From NCBI RefSeq assembly GCF_009731355.2, contig NZ_AP022810.1, positions 2,012,001-2,076,000 of the forward strand: a DNA stretch of 64,000 bases. The letters run 5' to 3'. The DNA comes from Desulfuromonas sp. AOP6. GTDB lineage: Bacteria; Desulfobacterota; Desulfuromonadia; Desulfuromonadales; SZUA-540. Position 1 is the stretch's first letter. Each line of letters starts with the position of its first letter. Of this stretch, positions 13,258 through 30,852 are shown piece after piece. Below the pieces are notes generated by a model that worked only from the letters and a program-made list of their open reading frames with translations, was not told the origin of the DNA and made no database searches. The position numbers were made by a program, and so were the translations under genes.

Positions 13258-13286
13258 TTACAGGGATGAAGGGGATGCAGGGGATG
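13258..13286. repeat. inverted repeat, outer side of GxxExxY gene 1 (left)
   Basis: This 29-base stretch, made of ACAGGGATG, AAGGGGATG and CAGGGGATG blocks, matches the reverse complement of 13740-13768 at 26 of 29 positions, including 19 in a row. The pair encloses the GxxExxY gene. It is also the start of hairpin unit B. Confidence 0.8.
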
Positions 13287-13350
13287 TTTTAAAAACCTAA
13301 AACAAGATCTTGGCTTTATCCTGTTCATCCCTTTTATCCCTGTTGATACG
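13260..13350. repeat. 91-bp hairpin repeat, unit B
   Basis: Second copy of the 91-bp element, 121 bases after the first. It shares with unit A the end TCCTGTTCATCCCTTTTATC followed by CCTGTT and ATACG. It differs at scattered positions, so the duplication is not recent. It directly follows the GxxExxY gene in the transcription direction. Confidence 0.8.
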
Positions 13351-13360
13351 CTTTTTGTTT

Positions 13361-13735
13361 TTAATCATTGAAGTGGTTATTAAACCGCCGATACTCTAAT
13401 TTTGGATTACCAAAGTTAATCAGCAATCCGACCTCTATTTTGGTTGCCTTCAGGTAATTGAGAACCTGGGCGACATGCTCTGGCGCCAAGGCCTTTACAG
13501 CCTTGAGTTCTACAAGGACTTTGTCCTCCACAACAAGGTCTGCAACAAAGTGCCCTACGATCACTCCTCTGAAGGGCACATTTAACGGCACTTGTGAACT
13601 TGCCCGCATTCCTTCGTCACGCAAGGCTACCAACAAGGCATTCTCGTAAACAGATTCAAGAAATCCTGATCCCAATTCGTTGCTGACTTGAAAGGATGTC
13701 TTAAGAATACGTTGGGTCAGATCTTCAAGCAGCAT
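13361..13735 (-). CDS. GxxExxY family protein (PD-(D/E)XK-like fold), copy 1
   Basis: A 124-residue protein of the GxxExxY family, which is assigned to the PD-(D/E)XK nuclease superfamily; its function is unknown. The name motif is GFLESVY at about residues 24-30, and a nuclease-like core D...ELK lies in ADLVVEDKVLVELKAVK at about 65-81, followed by VLNYLKAT and LLINFGNP. The reading frame is intact. It is inserted between rfbA and rfbC, on the operon strand, and bounded by 29-base inverted repeats; the right-hand repeat supplies the last codons and the stop of rfbA. It is probably a passenger rather than a part of rhamnose synthesis. Confidence 0.88.
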   Translation of the reverse strand: MLLEDLTQRILKTSFQVSNELGSGFLESVYENALLVALRDEGMRASSQVPLNVPFRGVIVGHFVADLVVEDKVLVELKAVKALAPEHVAQVLNYLKATKIEVGLLINFGNPKLEYRRFNNHFND

Positions 13736-13739
13736 GCAT

Positions 13740-13768
13740 TATCCCTTGAATCCCCTTCATCCCTGTAA
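13740..13768. repeat. inverted repeat, outer side of GxxExxY gene 1 (right)
   Basis: Reverse complement partner of 13258-13286 (26 of 29 positions). It overlaps the 3' end of rfbA: the codons Leu-Gln-Gly and the TGA stop of rfbA are read from it, which suggests that the cassette went in at the very end of rfbA. Confidence 0.8.
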
Positions 13769-14635
13769 ATTGTCTTCAAGGATTCGCGCCAGGTACTCCC
13801 GATAACTCGACTTGGGCGTTTGGGAAATGACTTTTTCCATCTCCTTGCGTGTCAAAAAACCTTTCATGAAGGCCACTTCTTCGAGGCAGGCGATCTTGAG
13901 TCCCTGTCGTGCTTCAAGGGTGCCGATAAAATGACTGGCTTCTAGCAGGCTCGTGTGGGTGCCGGTATCCAGCCAGGCGATGCCACGCCCGAGTTTTTCC
14001 ACGGCCAACTCACCTCTGCGCAGATATTCCATATTGAGGTCGGTAATTTCAAGTTCTCCACGCGCAGAGGGCTTCTGGTGGCGAACCAGTTCGGACACCT
14101 TGCCATCGTAGAGATAGAGCCCGGGGACGGCATAATGAGATTTTGGTTTTTGGGGTTTCTCTTCGATACTCAGAACCTTGCCGTCCTTGTCAAATTCAAC
14201 CACCCCATAGCGCTCGGGATCGGCTACAGGATACCCGAAAACGCGAGCGCCCTCTGAGAAGTCCCTGACAATACGATCCAGTCCCATTTTTCCATAAAAA
14301 ATATTGTCTCCAAGGATCAGTGCGACCGGATCGCCTGCAATGAACCCCTCCCCCACCTGAAAGGCCTGGGCAATACCCTTGGGTTCGGCCTGAACAGCGT
14401 AGGACAGCTGCACGCCAAAACGGCTGCCGTCTCCTAAAAGCGCCTCGAAGCGAGGTGTATCCTGAGGCGTAGAGATGATCAGAATTTCCCGGATGCCCGC
14501 CGTCATGAGTGTTGCCAGAGGATAATAGATCATCGGCTTGTCATAGACAGGCTGCAGCTGCTTGCTGGCCACCAGGGTCAGCGGATAGAGCCGCGTACCG
14601 GCGCCCCCGGCAAGAACGATACCTTTTTTGATCAT
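13757..14635 (-). CDS. rfbA: glucose-1-phosphate thymidylyltransferase
   Basis: RmlA joins dTTP and glucose-1-phosphate to form dTDP-glucose, the first rhamnose step. The nucleotidyltransferase signature [16 protein letters not shown] is at residues 5-20, with [27 protein letters not shown] and [20 protein letters not shown]. The length of 292 is normal. The start is ATG 14635. The final residues NLQG differ from the usual C-terminus because they are encoded by the inverted repeat at 13740-13768. The GxxExxY gene starts 21 bases after the stop. Confidence 0.97.
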
Positions 14636-14653
14636 GATTGAAATCCTTATCGA

Positions 14654-14719
14654 GTTTTAAGTTTTAAGTTTTAGGTGTTAGGTAAGAAATCTTAAAACTT
14701 GAGACCTTTAACTTAAAAC
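14654..14719. repeat. gene-free inverted heptad repeat between rfbD and rfbA
   Basis: The left arm has GTTTTAA heptads repeated about three times (14654-14674); the right arm (about 14691-14719) reads GTTTTAAG...GTTTTAAG on the opposite strand, so the element can fold. It lies between the two genes, and the TAA stop of rfbD (14713-14715) falls inside its right arm. This is the same layout as the gene-bearing cassettes but with no gene inside. Confidence 0.7.
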
Positions 14720-15654
14720 CTTTCTTGAAAATATTTCCCCAAACTCTCCCGCCACTCCGGCACCTGCCTCCCTGTAGCCGCCTTATACTTCTCTTTCGAC
14801 ATTACAGAATACTTGGGTCTTTGGGCGGGCAAAGGATACCCTTCTGTCGGAATCGGCAGGATGTTTTCAACCTTCAAACTTTCGGACTTACGCGCTTGAT
14901 CGATAATCTCCACCGCGAACTGATACCAGCTGCATTCGCCTTCGTTGGAAAAATGGTAAACACCGTAGGGGCTGGGAGGGGTGAGGGGTGAGGGGTGAGG
15001 CGTGTCACCTAAAGTCAACAGCTGAAAAATGGCCTCGGCCAGATCATCGGTCCAGGTTGGTGTTCCCCACTGGTCGTCGACCACTTTGAGCTCGGTACGT
15101 TCTTTGGCCAGACGAATCATGGTCTCGACAAAATTGTTGCCGCCAAGGCCATACAACCAACTGGTGCGGACAATAAAATACTTCTTCAAGCCGGATTCGA
15201 TGATTCTCTGCTCGCCAAGAAGTTTGCTTTGGCCATAGACCGACAGGGGCCCGGTGGGATCCTCTTCGTGGTAGGGCTCCTTTTTATCCCCGGAGAAGAC
15301 AAAGTCCGTGGACACATGCACCAGCACGGCATCTATCTCTGACGCCAACTGGGCCAATAGCCCAGGCCCCTCGCCATTAACCTGCATGGCCAATTCATGT
15401 TGAGTCTCACAACCATCAACGTTGGTATAGGCGGCGCAGTTGAGAATAATATCAGGTGCACTGTCCTGTAGGGCCAAAACCTGCGACCGGTTGGTTATGT
15501 CGAAATCAGGCAGACCGTAAGCCATAAGCTGGTAGCCTGGCGGCAGCACCCGCTTCACTGCGGAGGCCAGCATACCGTTGGCGCCGATGAGGGCGATGGT
15601 GCGGGAGACGCTCGGCGGGGAGTGGGGAGTTGGGAGTTGGGAGTTGGATGTCAT
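14713..15654 (-). CDS. rfbD: dTDP-4-dehydrorhamnose reductase with repeat-encoded segments
   Basis: RmlD reduces the 4-keto group to give dTDP-L-rhamnose. The Rossmann motif IALIGANGMLA begins near residue 20, STDFVFSGDK and YGQSKLLGEQ give the Ser and YxxxK catalytic site, and RTSWLYG and GTPTWTDDLA are typical. The start ATG 15654 has GGAG six bases upstream and overlaps the stop of the S23 gene as ATGA. Two segments are odd: residues about 4-15 (NSQLPTPHSPPS) come from the inverted heptad repeat, and an internal TPHPSPLTPPSP (from 14974-15008) comes from another heptad repeat, inserted in frame before YGVYHFSNEG. Both lie outside recognised catalytic motifs, so the enzyme is probably active. 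Confidence 0.95.
   Translation of the reverse strand: MTSNSQLPTPHSPPSVSRTIALIGANGMLASAVKRVLPPGYQLMAYGLPDFDITNRSQVLALQDSAPDIILNCAAYTNVDGCETQHELAMQVNGEGPGLLAQLASEIDAVLVHVSTDFVFSGDKKEPYHEEDPTGPLSVYGQSKLLGEQRIIESGLKKYFIVRTSWLYGLGGNNFVETMIRLAKERTELKVVDDQWGTPTWTDDLAEAIFQLLTLGDTPHPSPLTPPSPYGVYHFSNEGECSWYQFAVEIIDQARKSESLKVENILPIPTEGYPLPAQRPKYSVMSKEKYKAATGRQVPEWRESLGKYFQERF
14974..15008. repeat. in-frame heptad repeat inside rfbD
   Basis: Five 7-base units, GGGAGGG, GTGAGGG (twice), GTGAGGC and GTGTCAC, lie inside the rfbD reading frame and are translated on the minus strand as a Pro/Ser/Thr-rich loop. The units match the gene-free repeat at 52224-52258. Confidence 0.8.
15617..15650. repeat. inverted heptad repeat, left side of S23 gene
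   Basis: GGGAGTT heptads. Positions 15621-15639 match the reverse complement of 16001-16019 at 17 of 19 bases. It encodes the N-terminal residues of rfbD. Confidence 0.8.
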
Positions 15655-16004
15655 ACGTTGCTCCACTTTTTGTGCAAACCGGTCAGAAGTCGACCGACGG
15701 AGTCGGCCAAAGCAATGGCTGGGTGTTCTGCTGAAACGAATCCTAACATAACAGCGAGCTTTAACTGTGTTTCCAGTTCCGCCAAAGACCCGCGTGAGAT
15801 GCCGATAAATTGCAGATATTCTTTCGTATGGTTACGCCCTGAACCTTCAGCAAGGTTACTCGGAATCGATACCGCTGCACGACGCATCTGCTGTGATAAT
15901 CCGTAACGCTCTTCCGCAGGAAAGCATGATGTCAAATCATACACAGCCTTGGCCAATTCCATACTGATTCGCCAAGCCTCCAGTTTTTCATGCGGCTTTC
16001 CCAC
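15651..16004 (-). CDS. four helix bundle protein, S23/23S rRNA intervening-sequence family
   Basis: A small helical protein of the family first seen in intervening sequences of 23S rRNA genes, also related to Avd of diversity-generating retroelements; its function outside those settings is unknown. The family signature is clear: KLEAWRISMELAKAVYDLT, QMRRAAVSIPSNLAEGSGR and FIGISRGSLAELETQL. I chose GTG 16004 because GGGGAG lies just upstream and the longer reading frame to 16076 overlaps the end of rfbB with atypical residues. It is inserted between rfbB and rfbD on the operon strand and is enclosed by inverted heptad repeats. Its stop overlaps the rfbD start (ATGA). Confidence 0.88.
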   Translation of the reverse strand: MGKPHEKLEAWRISMELAKAVYDLTSCFPAEERYGLSQQMRRAAVSIPSNLAEGSGRNHTKEYLQFIGISRGSLAELETQLKLAVMLGFVSAEHPAIALADSVGRLLTGLHKKWSNV

Positions 16005-16025
16005 TCTCAACTCCCCACTACCTAC
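16001..16025. repeat. inverted heptad repeat, right side of S23 gene
   Basis: The minus strand reads TAGTGGGGAGTTGAGAGTGG, partner of 15621-15639. It starts a few bases after the rfbB stop (16030-16032) and supplies the ribosome site and GTG start of the S23 gene. Confidence 0.78.
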
Positions 16026-16029
16026 TTCC

Positions 16030-17082
16030 TCAAAGCACACCCAGCCGTTCGCGGCGATAGCTTCCATCCTGCACACGACGGCACCATTCAGAATTTTTCA
16101 GATACCATTCAACCGTTTTGCGAATGCCGGATTCGAAAGTTTCTTCGGGCTTCCACCCCAGTTCGCGCTGGATCTTGCTGGCGTCAATGGCGTAACGCAG
16201 ATCGTGGCCAGGGCGATCCTGGACATAAGTGATAAGTGAGGCGTAAGGAGAAAAGGCGGAGGGCGCCAGCTCGTCAAGCAGGGAACAGATTGCGCGCACC
16301 ACTTCGATGTTCTGCTTTTCGTTGTGCCCGCCGATGTTGTAGGTCTCCCCGACCTTGCCTTCGGTTACCACTTTGTAAAGAGCGCGGGCATGATCGTCGA
16401 CATAAAGCCAGTCGCGCACCTGGTTCCCTTTGCCGTAGACGGGGAGCGGCTTGCCTTCAAGGGCGTTGAGGATCATCAAGGGGATGAGTTTTTCGGGGAA
16501 ATGGTAAGGTCCGTAATTGTTGGAGCAGTTGGTGATCAGGGTCGGCAGACCGTAGGTACGCCGCCAGGCGCGCACCAGGTGATCAGAGCTGGCCTTACTG
16601 GCGCTGTAGGGGGAACTGGGCGCGTAAGGTGTCTGCTCGGTAAAGAGATCTTCCGGCCCTTCCAGGTCCCCGTAGACTTCATCGGTAGAGATATGATGAA
16701 AACGAAATGCCGCCTTGCGGTGTGCATCCAGGCTCTGCCAATAGGACCGTGCCGCCTCAAGCAAGGTATAGGTGCCGACGATATTGGTTTCGATAAAAGC
16801 GGCCGGACCGTCAATGGAGCGATCGACATGGCTTTCCGCCGCAAGATGCATGACTGCGTCGGGCTGGTGCTGGGAGAAAACGCGACCGAGTTCAGCACGG
16901 TTGCAGATATCGATCTGTTCAAAGGCATAGCGGTCGCTACGACTGACAGCGGCCAGGGATTCCAGATTGCCTGCGTAGGTCAGCTTGTCGACATTGACCA
17001 CGGCGTCAGCTGTATTCTGAATGATATGACGGATAACCGCCGAGCCTATAAATCCGGCCCCGCCGGTGACGAGCAGTTTCAT
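16030..17082 (-). CDS. rfbB: dTDP-glucose 4,6-dehydratase
   Basis: RmlB dehydrates dTDP-glucose to dTDP-4-keto-6-deoxyglucose. The NAD motif GGAGFIGS is at residues 7-14, the catalytic STDEVYGD (Asp134, Glu135) follows, and YSASK (Tyr159, Lys163) completes the site; [11 protein letters not shown] is near the C-terminus. The start is ATG 17082, with AGGGGAGA upstream and the family start MKLLVTGG; a longer frame to 17142 would add 20 atypical residues. It is the first rml gene in the transcription direction, and the S23 cassette starts just after its stop. Confidence 0.97.
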
Positions 17083-17163
17083 AAAAATCTCCCCTCTTTG
17101 GGATTGAATTACGTTAAACTGTTCGATTGAAAGAAATCGCAAAAGAAAAGACTTGCCGAGAAC

Positions 17164-18135
17164 TTAACCAACAATATCTCTTAAAACAGCCTTGAAACCA
17201 CTGGTGTTCCTATACCCGCCCTTAGCCAACAGGCTGCCGACGGCAATTACTCTGGGGAAAAGCCACTTACCTCGCGCTCTCATGCGATTTTCTATTGTCA
17301 GAATTTTTTGTTTGGTACGTATTTTGAGTTCAGTCAGTCGGTTGCGGTATTTTTCAGGGGCGTTTTTCTCCGCTGTTTCAACAGCTGAAACAAAAATTTT
17401 CAGTTGATCAACCTGTGTGCGCACCAGATTTGCCGCCTCTTTACAAAACTGCTTGTGAAGTGAATGAAAGAATGCATGAGCTTTTGTGACTTTGGTCGTT
17501 CTGTTGGCTATAAATTGTGATTCATTGGCTTCATGCCGCCGGTAATATTGCAACACGGTGCTATCAACCATCCTGGCATTCAGGCCGTCAGCGAACCATA
17601 CTAGCCAGCTATCGTGCCCCTTAAAGCCAGTAGGGATTGGCATACACAGCTCTAGAAGCTCTCGTCTAATACCGCAGCAACAACCCATGACAAAACTATC
17701 CATCGAAAATCCAGCCGTGCGGATTTGCCCAACTTTAGTCAAACCAACCTCATTTAGAGCCCCATCCGTAAGGGCCGCGTCATTCATTACCAGCAACGCT
17801 TCCGGATTGCGTTCGGCAACTCCCAGCATGTGTTCGATTTTTTCCGGGAACCAAACGTCGTCCTGATCACTTAGAAAGACCAAGTCGCCGGTAGTTTTCA
17901 TGAGTGCAGTGTTGAAGTTGCCGCAATAGCCCAGGTTCTGCTCGTTGCGGTGGAACTCAACGGTAAAGGGTGAGGTTTTGGCGAATTCACGGACGATGGT
18001 TTCGGTTTCATCGGTCGAGCAGTCATCTGTGATGATTACCTCATCCGGCTGTCGGGTTTGGTCTACGAAGCTTTGGAGTTGCTCTTGTATGTATTGGGCA
18101 CCGTTGTAGGTGGCCATTGCTATGGAGATTTTCAT
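17164..18135 (-). CDS. glycosyltransferase family 2, rhamnosyltransferase-like
   Basis: A 323-residue GT-A fold inverting transferase. The nucleotide-sugar site shows MATYNGAQYIQEQLQSF, VIITDDCSTDET and the metal-binding FLSDQDDVW (DxD) near residues 90-98. The pattern is common in transferases that add rhamnose, and the neighbouring rml genes fit that, but the donor is not proven. It overlaps the stop of the methyltransferase gene by 4 bp (18132-18135). The C-terminal part is basic and helical and lacks obvious membrane helices, so the protein is likely cytoplasmic or peripheral. Confidence 0.85.
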   Translation of the reverse strand: MKISIAMATYNGAQYIQEQLQSFVDQTRQPDEVIITDDCSTDETETIVREFAKTSPFTVEFHRNEQNLGYCGNFNTALMKTTGDLVFLSDQDDVWFPEKIEHMLGVAERNPEALLVMNDAALTDGALNEVGLTKVGQIRTAGFSMDSFVMGCCCGIRRELLELCMPIPTGFKGHDSWLVWFADGLNARMVDSTVLQYYRRHEANESQFIANRTTKVTKAHAFFHSLHKQFCKEAANLVRTQVDQLKIFVSAVETAEKNAPEKYRNRLTELKIRTKQKILTIENRMRARGKWLFPRVIAVGSLLAKGGYRNTSGFKAVLRDIVG

Positions 18136-19187
18136 TTAGGCTTTTCGACTAAGGCTGTAAGAAATTCTTCATTTTTAGAGGTTCGCGGAAAAATACTTTT
18201 CAGCCATTGAAAAAATGGCAACTTTGTTGGAATGCCATCATAAGGCGATTGGCCCAACTTCATACGATAACTCTTCAATGCTATATTTTTTCTGACTTCT
18301 TGGCGCGAATAAAATTTAATATTGACAAAACCATGAAATCTTAGGAAGTCCCTTAGGCTAGGATTGCTAAAGAGCACCAAGTGACGAGGAGTTTCTAATC
18401 CCCGCCAGTTTTTACCATAAATACTTACCCCAAGGCTCTCTATGTTGGGTGTATCTATATATAAAATTCCACCGGGCTTCAGCAGTCTATAGGCTGTACT
18501 CACAAGTTCGGCAGGGTCATGAACATGCTCAATCACATGATTGATCGTAATGGCATCAAAAACTTCCTTCATGTCAGAAAATTGCTCAACACCCCCCTCT
18601 AACACATCAAGCCCGTTTTCCCTAGCAACAGTTAAAGCTTTCGGATCTGGATCAACGCCCTTAACATTCCACCCAACCTCAGCTACCAGGGATAAAAAAT
18701 CGCCATTACCACAACCAACATCCAAAAGAGTTTGCCCTACCTGAGGCTTTGGAAGATATCGAAATTGTGCCTTCATAGCCTTTCGAAAATGCGGATAGAG
18801 CAATAGCAACACTGCACCTAGGCCAATAGCTGGTGTTCTTTTTGTTCCATGGTGATAGTTGCAATATCCGTTGACAAGCATTCGGCGGAATTTTCGCAAC
18901 TTGCTCAATTCTTCAAATGGCTTTTGGTCTTTAATCACCGTTTCATGTGTATAGTATGTGCCATAAGCTTTATGGATACTATTTCGATCAGGCCGTGGAT
19001 CAAGGTAGGCGCAAGTGCAATCCCTGCACTGATAAAGATTCCACTTGCCATTCGCCACAAAGAAGACATTGTCTACTAATTGTTCATACAATAACTTGCG
19101 ACTCTGTGCACCGCAAATAGGGCACGAAAAAACCCTTTCGAGTTCGTTTTCTGGCCAAGGGGTATCCCAACATTGTTTATCTGGCAT
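18132..19187 (-). CDS. class I SAM-dependent methyltransferase with N-terminal zinc ribbon
   Basis: A 351-residue protein. The N-terminus carries a four-cysteine zinc site (CPICG and CRDCTCAYLDPRP), and a Rossmann methyltransferase domain follows with LLDVGCGNGDFLS, VDPDPKALTVA and the motif-IV-like ITINHVIEHV. Proteins of this layout often sit in O-antigen loci and methylate sugars or cap chains. The start ATG 19187 is preferred over an upstream in-frame TTG at 19199. It lies between a flippase and a GT2. The substrate is unknown. Confidence 0.85.
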   Translation of the reverse strand: MPDKQCWDTPWPENELERVFSCPICGAQSRKLLYEQLVDNVFFVANGKWNLYQCRDCTCAYLDPRPDRNSIHKAYGTYYTHETVIKDQKPFEELSKLRKFRRMLVNGYCNYHHGTKRTPAIGLGAVLLLLYPHFRKAMKAQFRYLPKPQVGQTLLDVGCGNGDFLSLVAEVGWNVKGVDPDPKALTVARENGLDVLEGGVEQFSDMKEVFDAITINHVIEHVHDPAELVSTAYRLLKPGGILYIDTPNIESLGVSIYGKNWRGLETPRHLVLFSNPSLRDFLRFHGFVNIKFYSRQEVRKNIALKSYRMKLGQSPYDGIPTKLPFFQWLKSIFPRTSKNEEFLTALVEKPK

Positions 19188-19206
19188 CGCACATCTCAAA
19201 ATTCAT

Positions 19207-20670
19207 TTATTTGCCATTCCGAAATGCAACAGTTAACGGAATGAATCGAGCTACAATATCCTTAATTTCTTTAGGCATATTATGAATGGCCCACAAAACA
19301 GAGGTAAAAAACACTGCGACTACTGTTGTCAGCCACACCCAACCAGCGTACTGATTTCTGACCAATATTAATCCCAGGCACATCAAAAAAATCGGAAAAA
19401 ACAGAAAAGATTTTGATTGCTTAAAAATTTTTGCCCAATACAGTAACAAGGAGGCGTCCACTGCGGCCCTAATAGAAAACGCAATTGCCGCTCCGGAGAT
19501 ACCAAAAAAATGCAATCCAATATACAACAGCGCGAAGTAGGGTAACACTTCCCCCAAGTGGCACTTAGCAACGACATCAGGCCGCCCAGACGCTTGTAGG
19601 AGCGCATGAGGAATGCGGGCTATTGCATTCGCCCAGAATCCTAACAAAATAATTTGCCCTACCAAACTTGCCTGATCAGCAAATTCTCTCCCAATCCAGA
19701 TAGAGAGAAACCAATCCATCAGGAAAATACCCAATAAGAATAAAGGTGTTATAACCACAGCCAAAGACTTGATTGCCTTATCCGCCAACATCCACCCATC
19801 TGGCCCAATCCCTGCTTGAGCCAGACGCGGGAACAAAGCAGATGATAGCGCAATCGGTATAATATTGCTCCTTTCACCCAATTGAAATGGAACTGTATAA
19901 AAAGTGACGTACTTTGCGCCAAGAAGGGCGCCAATAACAAACCTGTCAAGAATGACCATCATAGGCCCAACCACCGAAGAAACTGTCACCCAACCACCAA
20001 AGCGTAGCAGATCTCCGGCCAAACCTTTTGAAACTGAATACTTAAATCCTGAGATAACATATGAGTAACACCGCTGGAACAATAAAGTTATGACTAAAGT
20101 TCGGGTAAGTATGGTAGCAACAATGAGCCCAGTCAGATCTGGGCCAACAAGTACAGCAACAGCCAGTGGAATAGTTTGAAGCAATATTGAACCGCTTACC
20201 GAAATGATATTGAGCTCAAGAAACTTATAACACCCCTGCAATGTCCCTGTTAGTACCCCTGCCATGGTTGCAATCGGGACCGCCAAAGAGAGCCAGGGGA
20301 TAGCCGCTAAAATTTCCGGTTTTAAGGGCCCCTCTACGGTAAAATGGTGGCCAAAAAAATATAGTGCGACGGGCCACATCAATAAAGCGCCCAACACGCT
20401 CATACCAGAATTCATCGCTAATGCTGTCCAAAAGGTTTCAGCTTTTTCAGCAGACTTTTCTTTCCCTAACATGGCAATTCGTTGAGCAGTAGCGCGCCCC
20501 AAGCCAAGGTCAAAAAGCCCGAAATAGCCAAGCAATAGCCAGGCAATTGCCAGGACGCCATAGCGCGAGACACCAATCTCGTCGATATATATCGGTATTG
20601 TGATCAGCGAAATACCCAAAGGCAGAATCGTGCCTATCAGATTGTATGTTGTGTGTTTTCGAATGCTCAT
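19207..20670 (-). CDS. O-unit flippase, Wzx-like, copy 2
   Basis: A 487-residue polytopic protein with about 14 hydrophobic segments. It begins MSIRKHTTYNLIGTILPLGI, has IDEIGVSRYGVLAIAWLLLGYFGLFDLGLGRAT, the MOP/Wzx pattern, and charged loops between helices. It is unlike the flippase at 5251-6429 in length and base composition. Together with the methyltransferase and GT2 that follow, it could serve a rhamnose-containing glycan separate from the AT-rich island's O-unit. A rho-independent terminator lies upstream at 20715-20749, so it should have its own promoter, which I cannot identify. Confidence 0.88.
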   Translation of the reverse strand: MSIRKHTTYNLIGTILPLGISLITIPIYIDEIGVSRYGVLAIAWLLLGYFGLFDLGLGRATAQRIAMLGKEKSAEKAETFWTALAMNSGMSVLGALLMWPVALYFFGHHFTVEGPLKPEILAAIPWLSLAVPIATMAGVLTGTLQGCYKFLELNIISVSGSILLQTIPLAVAVLVGPDLTGLIVATILTRTLVITLLFQRCYSYVISGFKYSVSKGLAGDLLRFGGWVTVSSVVGPMMVILDRFVIGALLGAKYVTFYTVPFQLGERSNIIPIALSSALFPRLAQAGIGPDGWMLADKAIKSLAVVITPLFLLGIFLMDWFLSIWIGREFADQASLVGQIILLGFWANAIARIPHALLQASGRPDVVAKCHLGEVLPYFALLYIGLHFFGISGAAIAFSIRAAVDASLLLYWAKIFKQSKSFLFFPIFLMCLGLILVRNQYAGWVWLTTVVAVFFTSVLWAIHNMPKEIKDIVARFIPLTVAFRNGK

Positions 20671-20714
20671 ATTGGGTGATTCTTAGTGAAGGCTTAAACA
20701 CCTAAGGGGACAAG

Positions 20715-20749
20715 CCAATTTTAAAAAGAGGCCTGACCTCCTTCAGGCC
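20715..20749 (-). terminator. rho-independent terminator after wzz2
   Basis: On the minus strand, GGCCTGA and TCAGGCC arms (20743-20749 and 20730-20736) form a perfect 7-bp stem with a 6-base loop, followed by TCTTTTTAAAA. It should end the wzz2 transcript before wzx2. Confidence 0.8.
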
Positions 20750-20884
20750 CATTCGTACCCTACGCGAGGATCAGGCCAGATTGACGACAGTTTCCCTCAA
20801 AACGCCCACGTTCTTGGGCAGCGGCTGCTACCCTTCAGCAAATACGTTCAACTTACTAAACAAGAAATGTACCAGGGCACCAAG

Positions 20885-20950
20885 CCGCAGGTCAACAGCG
20901 CCAACTGTGTGGCACACGTCATTTCCAAGCAAATAAATTTCCACATGTCT
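20885..20950 (-). pseudogene. degenerate copy of the glmS 5' end
   Basis: The plus strand here contains CAACAGCGCCAACT, identical to the segment covering the first codons of glmS (about 11058-11071), followed by further partial matches (CACAC, AATAA, CACATGT) through the glmS leader. It stands in the same position relative to wzz2 as the real glmS start does to wzz1. The start codon and frame are destroyed. I read it as the edge of the duplicated wzz-glmS segment. Confidence 0.6.
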
Positions 20951-21007
20951 GGAGCGTAAAAACTCCAAAAGCGCTAACTACACTCTTTTCACTTACCGGT
21001 AACGAGT

Positions 21008-21964
21008 TCACTCCACGCCAGACACCCCACTCACGCGAGACAGTCCCCCTGCCCTTTTGATGGCTTCAAAAAGAAAAGCGAGCAGCATTGAGCCAAAGAG
21101 TCCAAGAACACCAGCCACGGCGACAATCAATGTCTTTTTAGGTTTAACTGGTTTGGCAGGAACCGTTGGCTCTTTCGTCACGTTCGTACTTGTCAACATT
21201 CCCAACTTTAAGCGCAGATTTTCAATTAAAACTTCGGATGCCAAAATCTCGGCCTGGAGATCCTTTAATTTTTCTCGCAAACCATTTAAATACATTTGCT
21301 GATTCTGTATTTCACTGGAATAGATGAGCATCGATATGGCATTCGATGACCCCTCGGCCAAGGGTTTTTGTCTGATCTTTTCAAGTGCTTGTATTTTGTT
21401 AGATATATTGGACGAAATCACGTTGGACTGCTTTTCAAGCAGAGTTATTTTCCCCTCGAAATTTTTGTATTTTATTTCTTCCAACCTGATTTGTTTAAAT
21501 ATTATCTTTTTCTCGCCAGAAAGCTTCTCTTGAATATCGCTCTGAATATGCTGGAGCAATTCTTCCAAAACAGCCACAGCTTGAACCGGGTCACCACTTT
21601 GAATACTCATTTTAACCAAGTTTGTATCCCTGGGAATTTCGACTTTAACATCAGGATACTCTCTGCCGGTGATCTTTAGTTTTTGCTGAATTGCCTTATT
21701 GTAGGCACCTCCCCGGATTGTCTCTTTTATGGTGCCTGGCAAAACGACCATCATTTCATTGAGAGTCTCCCCATTGGTGTCGGAAATGAGGCGGATGCCT
21801 GGCTCGATAATGGTGGACACCTCATAGACCTTGGGCAATACCAGGCTGATGCCTGCAGCAGCCAGGGTAACCACCAGGGTGATTGCAAAAATCATGACTT
21901 TGCGCTGCCACAAAACCCGCAGAATATCAATCAAATCGATTTCATCATTGTGCATTTCTTGCAT
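21008..21964 (-). CDS. wzz: Wzz chain-length determinant, copy 2
   Basis: A 318-residue co-polymerase with the same plan as copy 1: cytoplasmic MQEMHNDEIDLIDILRVLWQ, first helix at about residues 25-45, a periplasmic coiled-coil part at about 140-250, and a second helix in VAVAGVLGLFGSMLLAF near 278-298. The first 20 residues and the last 40 are nearly identical to copy 1 in protein and DNA, while the middle is different in sequence and 79 residues shorter. Two Wzz proteins usually give two modal chain lengths, or one serves each of two glycans. A terminator follows at 20715-20749. Confidence 0.9.
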   Translation of the reverse strand: MQEMHNDEIDLIDILRVLWQRKVMIFAITLVVTLAAAGISLVLPKVYEVSTIIEPGIRLISDTNGETLNEMMVVLPGTIKETIRGGAYNKAIQQKLKITGREYPDVKVEIPRDTNLVKMSIQSGDPVQAVAVLEELLQHIQSDIQEKLSGEKKIIFKQIRLEEIKYKNFEGKITLLEKQSNVISSNISNKIQALEKIRQKPLAEGSSNAISMLIYSSEIQNQQMYLNGLREKLKDLQAEILASEVLIENLRLKLGMLTSTNVTKEPTVPAKPVKPKKTLIVAVAGVLGLFGSMLLAFLFEAIKRAGGLSRVSGVSGVE

Positions 21965-22303
21965 ATATGATCATCCCCATAAAATTCAGTCTCTCATCTT
22001 TTGCCAGGAGACTGTCCCTATACTTAACCAAGCGCGAAGTATAAAGATTCAGAAAACCCTATGCAATCAGAAATTCCCTTATAGGAAAACCTTTTACCGA
22101 TCTACACCTTTCTGCCGTATTTTCAGGATAAGGATTTACGGAGACCTGAACAGGAGCGGGGTAAATTCAAGTGACAGGTGCACCACATCGGGCTTCATCG
22201 AAGACTTCCTGAGGCGTCAGTTAGTCGAGGACGACAACGGCAAGGCGTGCCTTGTCTGACTAAATCGCATCAAAAGAGACCACCAGCTTATCATCCTCGC
22301 ATT
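21965..22303. promoter_or_regulatory. wzz2 upstream region
   Basis: 339 bases between gmhB and wzz2. The part nearest wzz2 resembles the wzz1 leader, including an imperfect TTCC/GGAA dyad at about 22074-22087. A short palindrome, CAAGGC GT GCCTTG, lies near 22241-22254 beyond the gmhB stop without a T-run. I see no supported gene and no clear promoter boxes. Confidence 0.4.
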
Positions 22304-22873
22304 CTACACCTCACCTTTAACACCCAAAACATGATGAGCGGCAACCAGCAGATCATCGGTTATGGCGTCAGCCAATACGCCGGCGCCCTGAGCATATTCT
22401 ATCTCTCCATACCCCGTGCGCACCAAAACAGTATAGCAACCTGCGGCCCGGCCTGCTTCGAGATCGGCGCGCTTGTCGCCGATCATGATGGAGGCGGACA
22501 GATCGATATTCCAGTCCTTCGCTGCCTGCAGCAGCATTCCCGGTTTTCCCTTGCGGCAATCACAGTCGCCCTCCCCTGTCTTCGTACCGAAGTCGGGATG
22601 ATGGGGGCAAAGATAGAAGGCGTCGATGCCGGTGCCATGCTGGGTCAGTTCGTGTTGCATATGAGCATGGAGCCTGTTGACGTCGTCCTCGGTGAAATAG
22701 CCACGGGCGATACCCGACTGGTTGGTCACCACCACGAGGAGAAATCCCGCCTCCTTCAAACGCTGAATGGCCTCGATGGCGCCGGGGATAAATTCGAAAT
22801 CTTCGAGGCGATGGAGATAATCCTTCTCGACATTGATGGTGCCGTCACGGTCGAGAAAAACGGCTCTTACCAT
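22304..22873 (-). CDS. gmhB: D-glycero-beta-D-manno-heptose-1,7-bisphosphate 7-phosphatase
   Basis: A HAD-family phosphatase that removes the C7 phosphate in ADP-heptose synthesis. It starts MVRAVFLDRDGTIN with the nucleophile and acid Asp residues of DxD (residues 8 and 10), and has VVVTNQSGIARGYF, the zinc-binding Cys/His set in YLCPHHPDF and CDCRKGKPGML, and MIGDKRADLEAG. I chose ATG 22873 because AGGA precedes it and the family begins here. It follows hldE1, separated by the frameshifted GxxExxY cassette. It is the only gmhB in the window, although hldE and gmhA occur twice. Confidence 0.95.
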   Translation of the reverse strand: MVRAVFLDRDGTINVEKDYLHRLEDFEFIPGAIEAIQRLKEAGFLLVVVTNQSGIARGYFTEDDVNRLHAHMQHELTQHGTGIDAFYLCPHHPDFGTKTGEGDCDCRKGKPGMLLQAAKDWNIDLSASIMIGDKRADLEAGRAAGCYTVLVRTGYGEIEYAQGAGVLADAITDDLLVAAHHVLGVKGEV

Positions 22874-22888
22874 AAAAATAATCCTTTT

Positions 22889-22917
22889 CACCACCAAGGC
22901 TCCAAGTCACCAAGAAA
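22889..22917. repeat. inverted repeat, left side of GxxExxY pseudogene
   Basis: The sequence reads ACCACCAAGG then CTCCAAGTCACCAAG and matches the reverse complement of 23301-23329 at 23 of 29 positions. It lies just upstream of the gmhB ribosome site. Confidence 0.78.
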
Positions 22918-22919
22918 AA

Positions 22920-23332
22920 CTAACGAGCCAATCGGGTAATGCCATGCTTTATCAAGGGGGTGTTGAAATTTATGAGAAAACCCAGTCGATGGCTGGAAAG
23001 CTTGAGATAGGTGAGCAATTGAGAAACATGCACGGGAAGAATTTTTCTACGGCCTTCAGTTCTATGACTATCTGGTCCTCAACCACCATATCCAGCCTGA
23101 GCCCCGCATCGAGCCTGATACCATCGTACACGACTGGAAGAGAGACCTGCCTTTGGACAACCAGTTTTCTTTTCAGCAGTTCATGAGCAAGGCAGGCTTC
23201 ATAGACATTTTCAAGAAGACCCGGCCCCAATTTGGAGTGAACAGAAAAAGCGGCATCGACAATTGATGCAGCAATTTCATCTGTCTTTTCTGGAATTGCT
23301 TTACTTGGTGTCTTTGTGGCTTGGTGGTTCAA
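22920..23332 (-). pseudogene. GxxExxY family gene, copy 2, frameshifted
   Basis: The first part encodes IVDAAFSVHSKLGPGLLENVYEACL, containing the GLLENVY family motif, and DMVVEDQIVIELKAVEK with the nuclease-like D...ELK. At a run of five A (coding sense, 23042-23046) the frame is lost and ends in unrelated residues at 22970. In the neighbouring frame the rest of the family continues as VSQLLTYLKLSSHRLGFLINF to a stop at 22920, so a one-base deletion in the A-run is the likely cause. The only start is TTG 23332, inside the right inverted repeat. A sequencing error in the homopolymer is the alternative. Confidence 0.85.
23301..23329. repeat. inverted repeat, right side of GxxExxY pseudogene
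   Basis: The minus strand reads ACCACCAAGCC then ACAAAGACACCAAG, partner of 22889-22917. It begins 9 bases after the last base of the hldE1 stop, and its codons form the first ten residues of the pseudogene frame. Confidence 0.78.
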
Positions 23333-23337
23333 TCGAT

Positions 23338-24807
23338 TTAGTCCTGATAAGCCTGCAAAATTTTTTCAACAATATTCGTCGTGGACTTGCCGTCGACGAA
23401 GGTGATGAGCTCGACGCGGCCGCCATAGCTTTCAACGACGTCCTTGCCGACGACCTGGTCGGCCTGGTAGTCGCCCCCTTTGACAAGGATATGGGGACGG
23501 ACTTCGCGGATGAGTTCGAGGGGGGTGTCTTCGTCAAAAATGACGACGTAGTCGATGCAGTCGAGGGCGGCGAGAATATGGGCGCGCTCGTCCTGATCGA
23601 TGAGGGGGCGTTTGGGCCCCTTGAGGCGGCGGATGGAGGCGTCGGAGTTGAGACCGAGGACCAGCAGATCACCGAGGCGTCTGGCTTTCTGCAGGTATTT
23701 GACGTGCCCGACATGCAGCAGGTCGAAACAGCCGTTGGTGAAGACGATAGTGCGTCCCTTTTGACGCTCGTTTTCGAGCAGGCGCTTGACGGAGGCGGCG
23801 CTGCGGATTTTGAGATCGCTGTCTTTGTGCTGGTGGGACAGCTCTTCGAGAATTTCTTCGGGAGAGACCGTGGATGTGCCGACCTTGCCGACGACGATGC
23901 CGGCTGCCAGGTTGGACAGACGGGCGGCCTGGTTGACGGATACCCCGGCGGCCAGACAGACGCCGAGGGAAGCGAGCACGGTGTCGCCGGCACCGGAGAC
24001 ATCGAAGACCTCGCGGGCCAGGGTGGGGAAGTGCTCTTCCTGCCCGTCCGGAAGAAACAGGGTCATCCCCTCTTCGCTGCGCGTCACCACCAGGGCATCC
24101 AGCGCCAGTTCATCGAAAAGTTGCCGACCCGCCCGGCGCAGGCTTGTCTCGTCGGCAATGGTGATCCCCACGGCCAGCTGGGTTTCCTTGCGATTGGGAG
24201 TCAGCAGGGTGGCGCCGCGGTACTTGCGGTAATCGGTGCCCTTGGGATCGATGACCACGGGGAGATCGGCGGCCTGGCCGAGGGCGATAATTTCCTGGAC
24301 GACTCTCTCCGTGAGAACGCCTTTGAGGTAATCGGACAGCAGAATCCCCTGCACGTCGGGCAGCAACTGCCGGACTTTCGCCAGCAGGCGTTCCTCGTCT
24401 GCAGTGGAGATGGGGGTACAGACCTCGCGATCGATGCGCAGCATCTGCTGATTGCTGGCGAGGATACGGCTTTTGCGGCTGGTGGTCCGGCCCGCGTCCC
24501 AGACCAGGCCATCGACATCGATGCGGCGCGCCTGCAGCAGTTCCTGCAGCCTGCGGCCGTCGGCGTCCTCTCCGAGAACACTGGCGACGCGCACCCGGCA
24601 GCCGAGGGACAACAGATTGTTGGCCACGTTGCCAGCCCCACCCAAGCGCAGGTCTTCCCCTGTGATGTTTACTATGGGAACCGGCGCTTCCGGCGAAATG
24701 CGGTCGGATTTTCCCCAGAGATACTCGTCGAGCATCAGGTCGCCGACCACCAGGATGGATAGATTTTCAAAGGATTCCAGCAGTTTTTCCGTTTCGCCGT
24801 AATTCAT
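23338..24807 (-). CDS. hldE: bifunctional heptose-7-phosphate kinase/heptose-1-phosphate adenylyltransferase, copy 1
   Basis: HldE phosphorylates D-glycero-D-manno-heptose-7-phosphate at C1 and later adds AMP. The N-terminal ribokinase domain (about 1-320) has LVVGDLMLDEYLWGKSDRIS, LRLGGAGNVANN, LASNQQMLRIDRE and the catalytic DVSGAGDTVLA. The C-terminal cytidylyltransferase-like domain (about 350-489) has FTNGCFDLLHVGHVKYLQ with the HxGH site. I chose ATG 24807 because it lies after the gmhA stop and begins MNYGETEK; the upstream start at 24861 would overlap gmhA. A second full copy lies at 29383-30852. gmhA1 precedes it by 8 bases. Confidence 0.96.
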   Translation of the reverse strand: MNYGETEKLLESFENLSILVVGDLMLDEYLWGKSDRISPEAPVPIVNITGEDLRLGGAGNVANNLLSLGCRVRVASVLGEDADGRRLQELLQARRIDVDGLVWDAGRTTSRKSRILASNQQMLRIDREVCTPISTADEERLLAKVRQLLPDVQGILLSDYLKGVLTERVVQEIIALGQAADLPVVIDPKGTDYRKYRGATLLTPNRKETQLAVGITIADETSLRRAGRQLFDELALDALVVTRSEEGMTLFLPDGQEEHFPTLAREVFDVSGAGDTVLASLGVCLAAGVSVNQAARLSNLAAGIVVGKVGTSTVSPEEILEELSHQHKDSDLKIRSAASVKRLLENERQKGRTIVFTNGCFDLLHVGHVKYLQKARRLGDLLVLGLNSDASIRRLKGPKRPLIDQDERAHILAALDCIDYVVIFDEDTPLELIREVRPHILVKGGDYQADQVVGKDVVESYGGRVELITFVDGKSTTNIVEKILQAYQD

Positions 24808-24814
24808 GGTTGAT

Positions 24815-25414
24815 CTATGCACTTTCCGCAGGGGTACAAAGAGCCTCTTCCACCAGGTCACAGAGGATGTGAATGATGGTCAGGTGGGCTTCTTGAATGT
24901 AAGGAGTGTGAGCAGCGGGAACAACCAGGGCCAGATCCGTGACTTGGGCGATGGGGCCGCCGTCTTTGCCGGCAAGAGCAATCGTCGTACAACCACGTTC
25001 CTGTGCGAGGTTAAGAGCTCTTAGAACATTGGGAGACTGACCGCTGGTGGAAATGCCTAAAACAATATCGCCTGGGGCGGCCAGGGCTTCTACCTGGCGG
25101 CTGAACACCTCGTCAAAGCCGAAATCGTTGCCGACGGCCGTCAGGATGGAGGTGTCGGTGGTCAGCGCGATGGCCGGCAGGGCCTTGCGGTTGCGCAGAA
25201 AGCGACCCACGAATTCTGCCGCCATATGCTGGGCGTCAGCGGCGGAACCGCCGTTTCCCATGACCAGCAGCTTATTGCCCCGGGCCATGGCATCGATAAG
25301 AGTCAGGGCGCAGCGCCGGATATCGGGGACCATCTGCTGCACCACCTTTTCCAAGGTGCGCATATGGCCGCTCAGGTGTTCGTTGATTTTGGGCGAGATA
25401 CGATCTTCAGGCAT
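24815..25414 (-). CDS. gmhA: sedoheptulose-7-phosphate isomerase, copy 1
   Basis: GmhA converts sedoheptulose-7-phosphate to D-glycero-D-manno-heptose-7-phosphate, the first heptose step. The SIS-domain motifs are LLVMGNGGSAADAQHMAAEF near residue 55, LTTDTSILTAVGNDFGFDEVF and VLGISTSGQSPNVLRAL. The 199-residue length is normal. A good sigma-70 promoter lies just upstream (25463-25491). It heads the gmhA1-hldE1-gmhB group. A paralogue lies at 31805-32389. Confidence 0.95.
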   Translation of the reverse strand: MPEDRISPKINEHLSGHMRTLEKVVQQMVPDIRRCALTLIDAMARGNKLLVMGNGGSAADAQHMAAEFVGRFLRNRKALPAIALTTDTSILTAVGNDFGFDEVFSRQVEALAAPGDIVLGISTSGQSPNVLRALNLAQERGCTTIALAGKDGGPIAQVTDLALVVPAAHTPYIQEAHLTIIHILCDLVEEALCTPAESA

Positions 25415-29358: not shown

Positions 29359-29382
29359 CAGCTGCGACGACGTCCTCTGCTT

Positions 29383-30852
29383 TTACTCCTGGTAGGCCTG
29401 TAAAATTTTTTCAACGATATTGGTCGTGGACTTTCCGTCAACAAAAGTGATGAGTTCAACGTGCCCCCCATAGCTTTCAACGATCTCTTTACCAACAACC
29501 TGGTCAGGCTGGTAGTCTCCCCCCTTGACAAGGATATGGGGACGGACTTCACGAATGAGTTCAAGGGGAGTGTCTTCGTCGAAAATCACGACATAGTCAA
29601 CACAGTCGAGAGCCGCGAGAATATGGGCGCGTTCTTCCTGATCGATGAAAGGGCGTTTGGCCCCCTTAAGGCGACGGATGGAGGTGTCAGAGTTGAGCCC
29701 CAGAACCAGCAGATCACCCAAGCGCCGGGCTTTCTGCAGGTATTTGACGTGACCGACATGCAGCAGATCAAAACAGCCGTTGGTGAAAACGATGGTACGG
29801 CCACGCTCTCGGGCCTGTTGCATTTCAGCTGAAATCAGGCAGCGCGATTTGATCTTCCGGTCGGTATCCAGGTGCTGCCCTTCGACGACCTCCAGAATTT
29901 CATGGGGTGAAACCGTCGACGTCCCCACCTTGCCGACCACCACCCCGGCAGCAACGTTAGCAAGATAAGCCGTGTCTTCCAAAGAAAGACCACCAGCCAA
30001 TCCTACTCCAAACAGGCACAAAACAGTATCCCCAGCACCCGAAACATCATAAACTTCCCGAGCCTCAGTCGGCAGATCCACCTCCGTGCCATTGCGCTTA
30101 AAAAGAGACATTCCTTCTTCACTGCGCGTCAATACCAATACATCGAGATCAAGTTCGCGGCAAAGCTTGCGACCGGCAACGCGCAGGGTAGCATCGTCTG
30201 TTATCTCTATTTGGGATGCCAGCTGGGCTTCTTTACGATTGGGGGTCAGGAGGGTCGCCCCTTTATACTTGCTATAATCGGAGCCTTTTGGATCGACCAC
30301 CACAGGAATACCTGCTTGGCGCCCAGCATCGATAATCTCACGCAAGACCAGCGGGGTGAGCACGCCCTTGAGGTAATCGGAAAGCAAAACCACATCGACA
30401 TGATTCATTTGACGCCTGATGTAGGCAACCAAGGCATCTTCCTGCATTCCAAGAATGGCCTCGCAACTTTCCCTGTCGATACGCAGCATTTGCTGGTTGC
30501 TGGCCAGCACTCGGGTTTTGCGGCTGGTTGTGCGGCCTGGCACCTGTTGTACGCCGTCGATCCCTACCTGTAATTCCTGAAGCCTCCTGCGTAGCAGCTT
30601 GCCATCCTCATCTTCGCCCAAGACGCTTGCCACATCCACCTGACAGCCAAGTCGCAAAAGATTGTTGATGACATTACCGGCTCCGCCAAGGCGAAGGTCA
30701 TGCCGTTTGACATCTACCACCTGAACCGGCGCCTCGGGAGAAATACGATCGGCATTTCCCCACAGATATTCATCCAGCATCAGGTCGCCGACCACCAGAG
30801 CCCTGATGCTCGGCAGACCACTCAGAAAACTCTCGACAGCTGTGCGCTTCAT
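29383..30852 (-). CDS. hldE: bifunctional heptose-7-phosphate kinase/adenylyltransferase, copy 2
   Basis: A complete 489-residue HldE with both domains: the kinase with VVGDLMLDEYLWGNADRIS, RLGGAGNVINN and DVSGAGDTVLCLF, and the adenylyltransferase with FTNGCFDLLHVGHVKYLQ. The C-terminal 140 residues are nearly identical to copy 1; the kinase domain is more divergent. It is the last gene of the gmhA2-DHS-like-hldE2 set, and its start overlaps the DHS-like stop by 4 bases. It converges with the plus-strand LtaS-like gene. All catalytic motifs are present, so there is no sign of decay. Confidence 0.95.
   Translation of the reverse strand: MKRTAVESFLSGLPSIRALVVGDLMLDEYLWGNADRISPEAPVQVVDVKRHDLRLGGAGNVINNLLRLGCQVDVASVLGEDEDGKLLRRRLQELQVGIDGVQQVPGRTTSRKTRVLASNQQMLRIDRESCEAILGMQEDALVAYIRRQMNHVDVVLLSDYLKGVLTPLVLREIIDAGRQAGIPVVVDPKGSDYSKYKGATLLTPNRKEAQLASQIEITDDATLRVAGRKLCRELDLDVLVLTRSEEGMSLFKRNGTEVDLPTEAREVYDVSGAGDTVLCLFGVGLAGGLSLEDTAYLANVAAGVVVGKVGTSTVSPHEILEVVEGQHLDTDRKIKSRCLISAEMQQARERGRTIVFTNGCFDLLHVGHVKYLQKARRLGDLLVLGLNSDTSIRRLKGAKRPFIDQEERAHILAALDCVDYVVIFDEDTPLELIREVRPHILVKGGDYQPDQVVGKEIVESYGGHVELITFVDGKSTTNIVEKILQAYQE

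Follow-up and report, generated by a model that had tools for sequence, protein, structure and literature searches.

Why are small genes of the GxxExxY and S23 families found amid the lipopolysaccharide (LPS) genes of Desulfuromonas sp. AOP6, each held between inverted runs of short repeats? The stretch analyzed here, hereafter the window, comprises 64,000 nucleotides (nt) of contig NZ_AP022810.1 (assembly GCF_009731355.2, positions 2,012,001 to 2,076,000) and carries on its minus strand a GxxExxY gene in the rfbA-rfbC junction, an S23 gene in the rfbB-rfbD junction and a broken GxxExxY gene in the hldE-gmhB junction, the LPS gene names being those of a first-pass annotation read from the sequence alone. 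Profile searches assign the GxxExxY genes to PF13366/TIGR04256 and the S23 gene to PF05635/TIGR02436, and the 3.27-Mb, single-contig genome holds no further members of either family at E <= 0.001. We propose that these genes probably belong to two related families of small, compact mobile elements whose iterated ends are specific to the encoded protein; on our best reading the elements are mostly co-directional with their neighbors and resemble intervening sequences, the S23 family being akin to the intervening sequence (IVS) of 23S ribosomal RNA (rRNA).

All three elements share one layout, in which a 5' arm, a single gene and a 3' arm follow each other within an arm-to-arm length of 405-511 bp (Table 1). 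That the small genes are bounded by inverted short-period repeats had been proposed in the first-pass annotation, and the arms were recovered independently (28 nt at 93%, 23 nt at 87% and 39 nt at 77% complementarity); among the 55 inverted pairs of the window spaced by at most 1500 nt, those of the first GxxExxY, the S23 and the second GxxExxY elements rank third, ninth and first, respectively. The three elements carry three distinct arm sequences, and the notion that such unlike repeats are all built of units of about 7-9 bases is borne out by measured periods of 9 (13263-13286), 7 (15618-15647) and 8 (22892-22914). Of the arms originally drawn, that at 13258-13286 is a genuine inverted arm but belongs, as its outer arm, to a gene-less 94-nt palindromic mini-element (13258-13351), which thereby provides the 3' arm of the first GxxExxY element; the one at 23301-23329 is likewise real but falls within the 5' end of the open reading frame (ORF) as previously delimited. 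The elements do abut the ends of the upstream genes, as the annotation held, and the rfbA stop codon (13757-13759; rfbA ORF 13757-14635) sits inside the 5' arm of the first GxxExxY element. On the other side, in our own reading, rfbD probably starts within the stop region of S23, with which its likely start codon overlaps, and the S23 3' arm translates as the next rfbD codons. Because both neighbors are abutted and the whole junction between two genes is filled, insertion at the "3' ends of genes" is too narrow a description. The reading frame of the second GxxExxY gene breaks near 23036-23048, and an intact copy occupies the same junction in a genome of the same genus (G001).

The same anatomy recurs around other members of both families. 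GxxExxY genes are present in 61 of 98 genomes, our own included, and S23 genes in 59 of 98 (48 of 98 above the family cut-off). From our genome and its relatives we fetched 162 loci (92 GxxExxY and 70 S23, 157 with both flanks), which represent the higher-scoring matches, with most fragments and the low-scoring tail left out, and scored arms as inverted alignments between the flanks at a threshold of at least 16. With 220-nt flanks, arms surround 75/91 GxxExxY and 53/66 S23 genes versus 30/347 neighboring ORFs from the same loci, and with 450-nt flanks 81/91 and 55/66, respectively, versus 51/910 and 26/660 when flanks are paired across genomes. Direct repeats between the flanks are also common (59/91 GxxExxY and 29/66 S23 loci at a score of at least 16 in 450-nt flanks) and, in the cases listed, consist mostly of longer palindromic units copied on both sides; outside the arms there is only a weak k-mer enrichment, with AAAGGTTT present on one side in 11 and on the other in 12 of 52 genomes. 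An S23 profile scan beyond the order yielded a cross-phylum set of 80 named loci from many phyla (78 with flanks), and a GxxExxY search of 50 of the genomes that carry these 80 loci found 26 positive (30 loci, 27 with flanks). Here, too, arms flank 62/78 S23 loci versus 20/390 in the null and 22/27 GxxExxY loci versus 13/216, while heptamers can be seen by eye at several of the S23 loci below the threshold. The proposed check on flanking inverted repeats around other members therefore returns enrichment over controls for both gene families, and the idea of a cassette family with inverted short-period ends holds across many phyla, well beyond the window.

The period of the repeated unit follows the gene family: it is 7 for S23 and 8-10 for GxxExxY. 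Periods, as well as the wobble counts discussed below, were taken from arm pairs of at most 70 nt that score at least 16, which are available for 58/91 GxxExxY and 45/66 S23 loci in our genome and its relatives. Among these, S23 arm pairs have a period of 7 in 39/45 cases and of 14 in three more, and GxxExxY pairs a period of 8, 9 or 10 in 54/58; in the cross-phylum set the 62 S23 arms show period 7 in 48 cases, 14 in 4, 8 in 7 and other values in 3, and 19 of the 22 GxxExxY arms fall within 8-10. The number of units is similarly characteristic. S23 arms contain a median of 4.9 units in the relatives and 4.6 across phyla, with four to five units in 37/99 and 47/109 arms, respectively, and GxxExxY arms a median of 2.8-2.9; in these unit counts the 3' side of the 72 cross-phylum loci was placed from an approximate gene end. 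Three cores at both ends are seen in 68/122 GxxExxY loci. Furthermore, arm similarity climbs with protein identity between taxonomic families (Spearman 0.395 for GxxExxY and 0.314 for S23), a correlation that none of 1000 permutations reaches and that the reverse-sense control lacks (-0.009 and -0.188). All three reading frames are open in 50/113 S23 3' arms versus 23/103 5' arms, which is a trend only.

Orthologous junctions with and without an element show gain or loss. In G001 the rfbC-rfbA junction is free of the GxxExxY element and of both mini-elements found there in the window, the rfbD-rfbB junction is free of the S23 element, and the rfbA-rfbD junction contains a GxxExxY-type mini-element where the window has a heptamer palindrome. 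Across 32 rfbA-rfbC junctions (not counting a further one in G025, of 28 nt), the gap measures 28-248 nt in the relatives among the matches listed, except for 513 nt in G031, and 664 nt in the window; the G031 gap contains an S23 gene, and G007, a genome from another family, has a GxxExxY gene between rfbA and rfbC. Between hldE and gmhB the gap does not exceed 207 nt in 28/33 relatives; this junction is occupied by S23 genes in G021, G022, G040 and G061 and by GxxExxY genes in our own genome (G000), G001 and G049; other long gaps occur in G035 (374 nt, partly unaligned) and G043 (2304 nt). By our own assessment, the 5' arm provides the hldE stop at the S23-bearing junctions and the 3' arm is readable as the first gmhB codons. 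The 156-nt junction of G007 has GTGAGGA-type arms around a stretch that we read as resembling an S23 gene end, and a tblastn search at 1e-3 gave no match to an S23 remnant there. The empty sites that the first-pass annotation called for thus exist as orthologous junctions between species rather than strains.

The genome G007 has elements at the same two rfb junctions as the window, and one of them is far more alike between the two genomes than its flanks. The S23 gene is 96.4% identical over 331 nt, as against 83-85% for rfbD, 77% for rfbA, 79% for rfbC and 79% for rfbB; identity falls sharply at the rfbB side of the gene and more mildly at the rfbD side, whose first 150 nt are 87-92% identical. 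Separately, the two parts of the rfbB match of G007 (contig 23, L129) are separated by an extended array of GGGAGTT-type heptamers, around 3440-3560, whose halves are inverted.

With regard to placement, both neighbors are co-directional with the element at 51/86 GxxExxY and 49/63 S23 loci, and both are opposed at 7 and 5, respectively. Elements also lie near each other: of 15 contigs analyzed, 12 carry at least two of the fetched elements, and on these, 11 neighboring pairs are separated by at most 10 kb versus 0.7 expected and a maximum of 5 in 2000 random placements, and nine of the 11 close pairs combine one element of each family. These contigs were chosen after the tables had been seen, partly for visible clusters, and the excess is therefore inflated. 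Homologs of 11 proteins encoded in this part of the window flank 22/92 GxxExxY and 19/70 S23 loci, as well as 12/80 cross-phylum S23 and 1/30 cross-phylum GxxExxY loci, so that surface-polysaccharide operons appear as a frequent, not an exclusive, site. Among the Betaproteobacteria, S23 elements stand beside rfb homologs at L184 and L186 (Deefgea) and at L181 (Nitrosomonadales). GxxExxY genes occur on 6 plasmid records and S23 genes on 38, most of the latter cyanobacterial, and three of four fetched S23 loci on Nostoc-group plasmids have inverted heptamer arms, the fourth (L178) scoring under the threshold. No phage record matched GxxExxY, with two viral contigs appearing in one pattern scan, and the stretch 13258-13380 has no plasmid match; these plasmid and viral hits, of which the four S23 plasmid loci were fetched, yielded no empty site at strain level.

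The ends of the elements are also found without a gene between them. The mini-element at 13258-13351 is matched in 28 of 58 genomes, our own included, with 14 matches in G007, 21 in G023 and 18 in G022, many of them to one arm only; in our own genome the matches are confined to the two window copies and the single arm of the GxxExxY element. Gene-less arm pairs of the CACCAAG type that characterizes the second GxxExxY element lie in three other places of the genome, namely as four tandem copies of ~138 nt each at 730403-730914 of contig 1 (L308) and as further arms near 2628.7 kb and 384.9 kb. Within the window, mini-element 1 starts 12 nt from the rfbC start as we read it.

Table 1. Elements, arms and gene-less derivatives in the window (window coordinates; arm sides in gene sense)
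Feature	Position	Strand	Details
GxxExxY gene, predicted PD-(D/E)XK nuclease	13361..13735	-	TIGR04256 E 2.5e-41, PF13366 139 bits
First GxxExxY element, 5' arm	13741..13768	-	28 nt, 93% complementary to 13258-13285
S23 four-helix-bundle gene	15651..16004	-	TIGR02436 E 5.6e-32, PF05635 118.6 bits
S23 element, 3' arm, (GGGAGTT)n on plus strand	15618..15647	-	repeat and inverted-pair scans
S23 element, 5' arm, 7 nt past rfbB stop	16000..16022	-	23 nt, 87% complementary to 15618-15640
Second GxxExxY gene, frameshifted	22920..23300	-	both pieces match TIGR04256, in different frames
Second GxxExxY element, 3' arm, just ahead of likely gmhB ATG	22880..22918	-	39 nt, 77% complementary to 23300-23338
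Second GxxExxY element, 5' arm, CACCAAG-type cores, directly after hldE	23300..23338	-	inverted-pair scan; hldE ORF 23338-24861
Mini-element 1, GxxExxY type, gene-less, arms TTACAGGGATG... / ...ATCCCTGTTAA	13137..13229	.	86% identical to mini-element 2
Mini-element 2, gene-less, 94-nt palindrome	13258..13351	.	inverted-pair scan; 93% identical copy in G007 between rfbA and rfbD
Heptamer palindrome (AGTTTTA)n, imperfect and gene-less, in the rfbA-rfbD junction; S23 type judging from its period	14653..14719	.	repeat and inverted-pair scans

Two further features of the window touch on these elements. The rfbD ORF contains four GAGGGGT heptamers at 14976-15004 that encode a Pro/Thr/Ser-rich insert, a solo S23-type array within a gene. 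Also, hldE is present in two copies (23337-24753 and 29382-30798) that lie 6045 bases apart and share stretches of 72-85% identity; only the first precedes an element, and none is seen past the stop of the second.

What the enclosed genes encode bears on how the elements might move. The Pfam name of the GxxExxY family is PDDEXK_3, and in an alignment of 92 sequences residues E23, D63, E73, K75 and Q87 are kept in 99-100%; in a set of 35 sequences the motif is invariant. An E, D, ExK pattern is the motif of PD-(D/E)XK nucleases, and the GxxExxY protein is a predicted member of this class. Its predicted structural model, built from three sequences, follows a helix-helix-three strands-helix order with a predicted local distance difference test score (pLDDT) of 69.7; a sequence match of the protein to residues 207-284 of ketol-acid reductoisomerase (5e4r_A, E 4e-4) was taken as chance. 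The first-pass annotation saw no mobilizing enzyme, which stands for S23, where no such motif is seen, but not for GxxExxY, itself the predicted nuclease. For S23, sequence comparison finds a single relative of solved structure, 2gsc (XCC0516, five chains, E 9.4e-32), and the Xanthomonas campestris protein reportedly forms a homopentamer (PMC4990558). An arm of four to five heptamers and a ring of five subunits may point to one unit per subunit and, because 7 bp is not a DNA helical repeat, we infer that a single strand would be the favored ligand. In another context, a figure legend (figure 6 of PMC10910872) names "23S rRNA IVP" (S23) among genes found with CRISPR adaptation modules.

Several observations weigh against mobility or against the part we assign to the proteins. 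The S23 proteins at the hldE-gmhB junctions of G021, G022 and G040 are 65-76% identical, about as diverged as hldE itself (66-71%), which would also fit an old insertion followed by repeated loss. The first GxxExxY gene is 81.5% identical between the window and G007, no higher than its flanks, and may therefore have been inherited or acquired together with the operon. By eye, no target-site duplication is seen at the rfbC-rfbA, rfbD-rfbB or hldE-gmhB junctions in these between-species comparisons, which likewise yielded no strain-level empty site. With 220-nt flanks, 16/91 GxxExxY and 13/66 S23 genes remain below the arm threshold, and common descent of whole elements could give the co-variation of arms and proteins without any binding. 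As for the proteins, the GxxExxY model, a weak one, has no match at E <= 0.001 among solved folds, and no catalytic motif is seen in S23, whose mover is therefore missing.

We weighed our proposal against three other explanations. The elements could act at the level of RNA, with arms that pair in the transcript, excision by RNase III or a similar enzyme, much as the IVS is cut from rRNA, and spread through RNA; pairing of the arm ends in RNA had also been suggested in the first-pass annotation. This explanation draws on the Coxiella IVS, which is described with an S23 ORF, a 28-bp terminal stem, upstream heptamers and RNase III cutting (PMC4990558), and on a resemblance of S23 to Avd, the partner of a reverse transcriptase (PMC10053308), detected with the DivGenRetAVD model at E 3.9e-5 and below that model's cut-off. 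The prevailing co-direction with neighboring genes also speaks for it, but would be equally expected if the gene needed read-through expression. We sorted the transitions between arms by whether the sense RNA would retain a G-U pair or lose the pairing and counted 243 compatible versus 257 incompatible changes overall (95% interval of the compatible fraction 0.44-0.53). In our genome and its relatives the counts are 144 versus 153 (GxxExxY 81 versus 77, S23 63 versus 76), and in the cross-phylum set GxxExxY leans toward pairing (39 versus 22, p 0.04), where a weak effect may exist, whereas S23 leans the opposite way (60 versus 82, p 0.08), as it does in the relatives. With both kinds of change about equally frequent, we rejected RNA pairing as a selected trait; the suggested pairing of the ends thus finds no support in this, the one test made, and we regard an RNA-level element as unlikely.

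Alternatively, the arms could be binding sites of a host regulator, between which the genes landed as cargo, much as the opposite-strand paired tandem 7-9-mers of Geobacter metallireducens are listed as predicted global regulator binding sites (PMC2700814). The gene-less arm pairs of our own genome would suit this, yet unit period and number track the family of the enclosed gene, arm sequence tracks protein sequence and the elements of the window all differ in arm sequence. Since family-specific arms are not what one would expect from a host regulator, we consider such an origin very improbable. We give no more credence than that to small genes that the host retains for their function, be it in defense or as toxin-antitoxin systems, and that were moved by other elements that left the repeats as scars: the small size and patchy distribution of the genes, their clusters and some association with surface-polysaccharide genes fit such cargo, but each window element has a single gene, gene-less derivatives have the same ends and decay is visible in the window frameshift and in remnants.

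Mobile elements with iterated, protein-specific ends also have recognizable relatives among known systems. The Coxiella and Leptospira 23S rRNA IVS is reported to share with the S23 element an S23 gene, a length of ~430 nt, inverted terminal repeats (28-bp stem) and tandem heptamers ahead of the ORF, but sits in rRNA and is excised from it (PMC4990558), whereas the elements described here sit between protein genes. Judged by the features that define an IVS, the window S23 element has the S23 protein and the inverted terminal repeats but lies between rfbB and rfbD instead of inside an rRNA gene; no Rfam match, and thus no rRNA, is found at the gathering score in the window or in the 20 of the 80 cross-phylum S23 loci that were scanned, and there is no sign in the wobble counts that arm pairing is selected. 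In Xanthomonas and Nostoc, GGGAATC and GGGGA(C/T)T repeats are likewise heptamers with about four units preferred, and two Xanthomonas genomes are reported to hold 70 and 75 inverted heptamer pairs; they are described as quadruplex-forming and generally not tied to mobile elements, and the main text does not mention S23 (PMC4692102). We find S23 genes flanked by GGGAATC-type heptamers at the Xanthomonas loci L190 and L206, and by TAGGGAG or AACAGGG heptamer arms on Nostoc plasmids. Repeat classes 1-3 of G. metallireducens are similarly tandem 7-9-mers, with classes 1 and 2 paired on opposite strands, but are named as predicted regulator sites in a main text from which S23 is absent (PMC2700814).

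The mini-elements invite a comparison with miniature inverted-repeat transposable elements (MITEs) and with REPINs, the latter being short, palindromic and gene-less as well (PMC3116915). In our genome, gene-less copies of the same type are present, as for elements mobilized in trans, but no Y1 or DDE transposase lies between the ends. The gene of the REP-associated tyrosine transposase (RAYT) carries the same ends as its REPIN; our elements enclose S23 or a predicted PD-(D/E)XK nuclease instead of a Y1 transposase, and the arms are iterated units. An open-licence literature search returned no paper, in the text portions covered, in which S23 or GxxExxY genes located outside rRNA are connected with repeats on their flanks.

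We therefore favor a model in which each window element would be a compact selfish mobile element whose arms are inverted copies of a short-unit run, most often four to five heptamers in the S23 family and about three cores spaced 8-10 nt in the GxxExxY family. Lying in gene junctions and mostly in the direction of both neighbors, the elements can be expressed from the host transcript and, because the upstream gene can terminate in the 5' arm and the downstream gene begin in the 3' arm, insertion may do little harm. The encoded protein would recognize the repeated units of its own element and help to place copies at other junctions, possibly by nuclease action in the case of GxxExxY; the mini-elements would arise by internal deletion and spread in trans. 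Movement could proceed via DNA or RNA.

Both S23 (the "four helix bundle protein") and GxxExxY are families that recur widely in annotations and that, in our reading of the literature, lack an agreed role, and the origin of the rRNA IVS has been called unclear (PMC4990558). It is conceivable, although we would stop somewhat short of even odds, that the elements form a previously unrecognized class of mobile element spanning many phyla, with a single small gene between iterated inverted arms and a protein family that fixes unit length and number: four to five heptamers for S23, one per subunit of a pentameric ring that wraps a single strand, and three cores of 8-10 nt for GxxExxY, with the rRNA IVS, the orphan Xanthomonas and Nostoc heptamers and the Geobacter paired repeats as members or remains. 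If S23 and GxxExxY are the genes of minimal mobile elements whose iterated ends are protein-specific, the origin of the rRNA intervening sequence would become testable outside rRNA, several orphan classes of bacterial short tandem repeats would share one explanation, and the tolerance of operons to insertions would be accounted for by elements that supply both the end of one gene and the beginning of the following one. The pairing of arms and proteins also provides a large natural set of matched proteins and target sequences.

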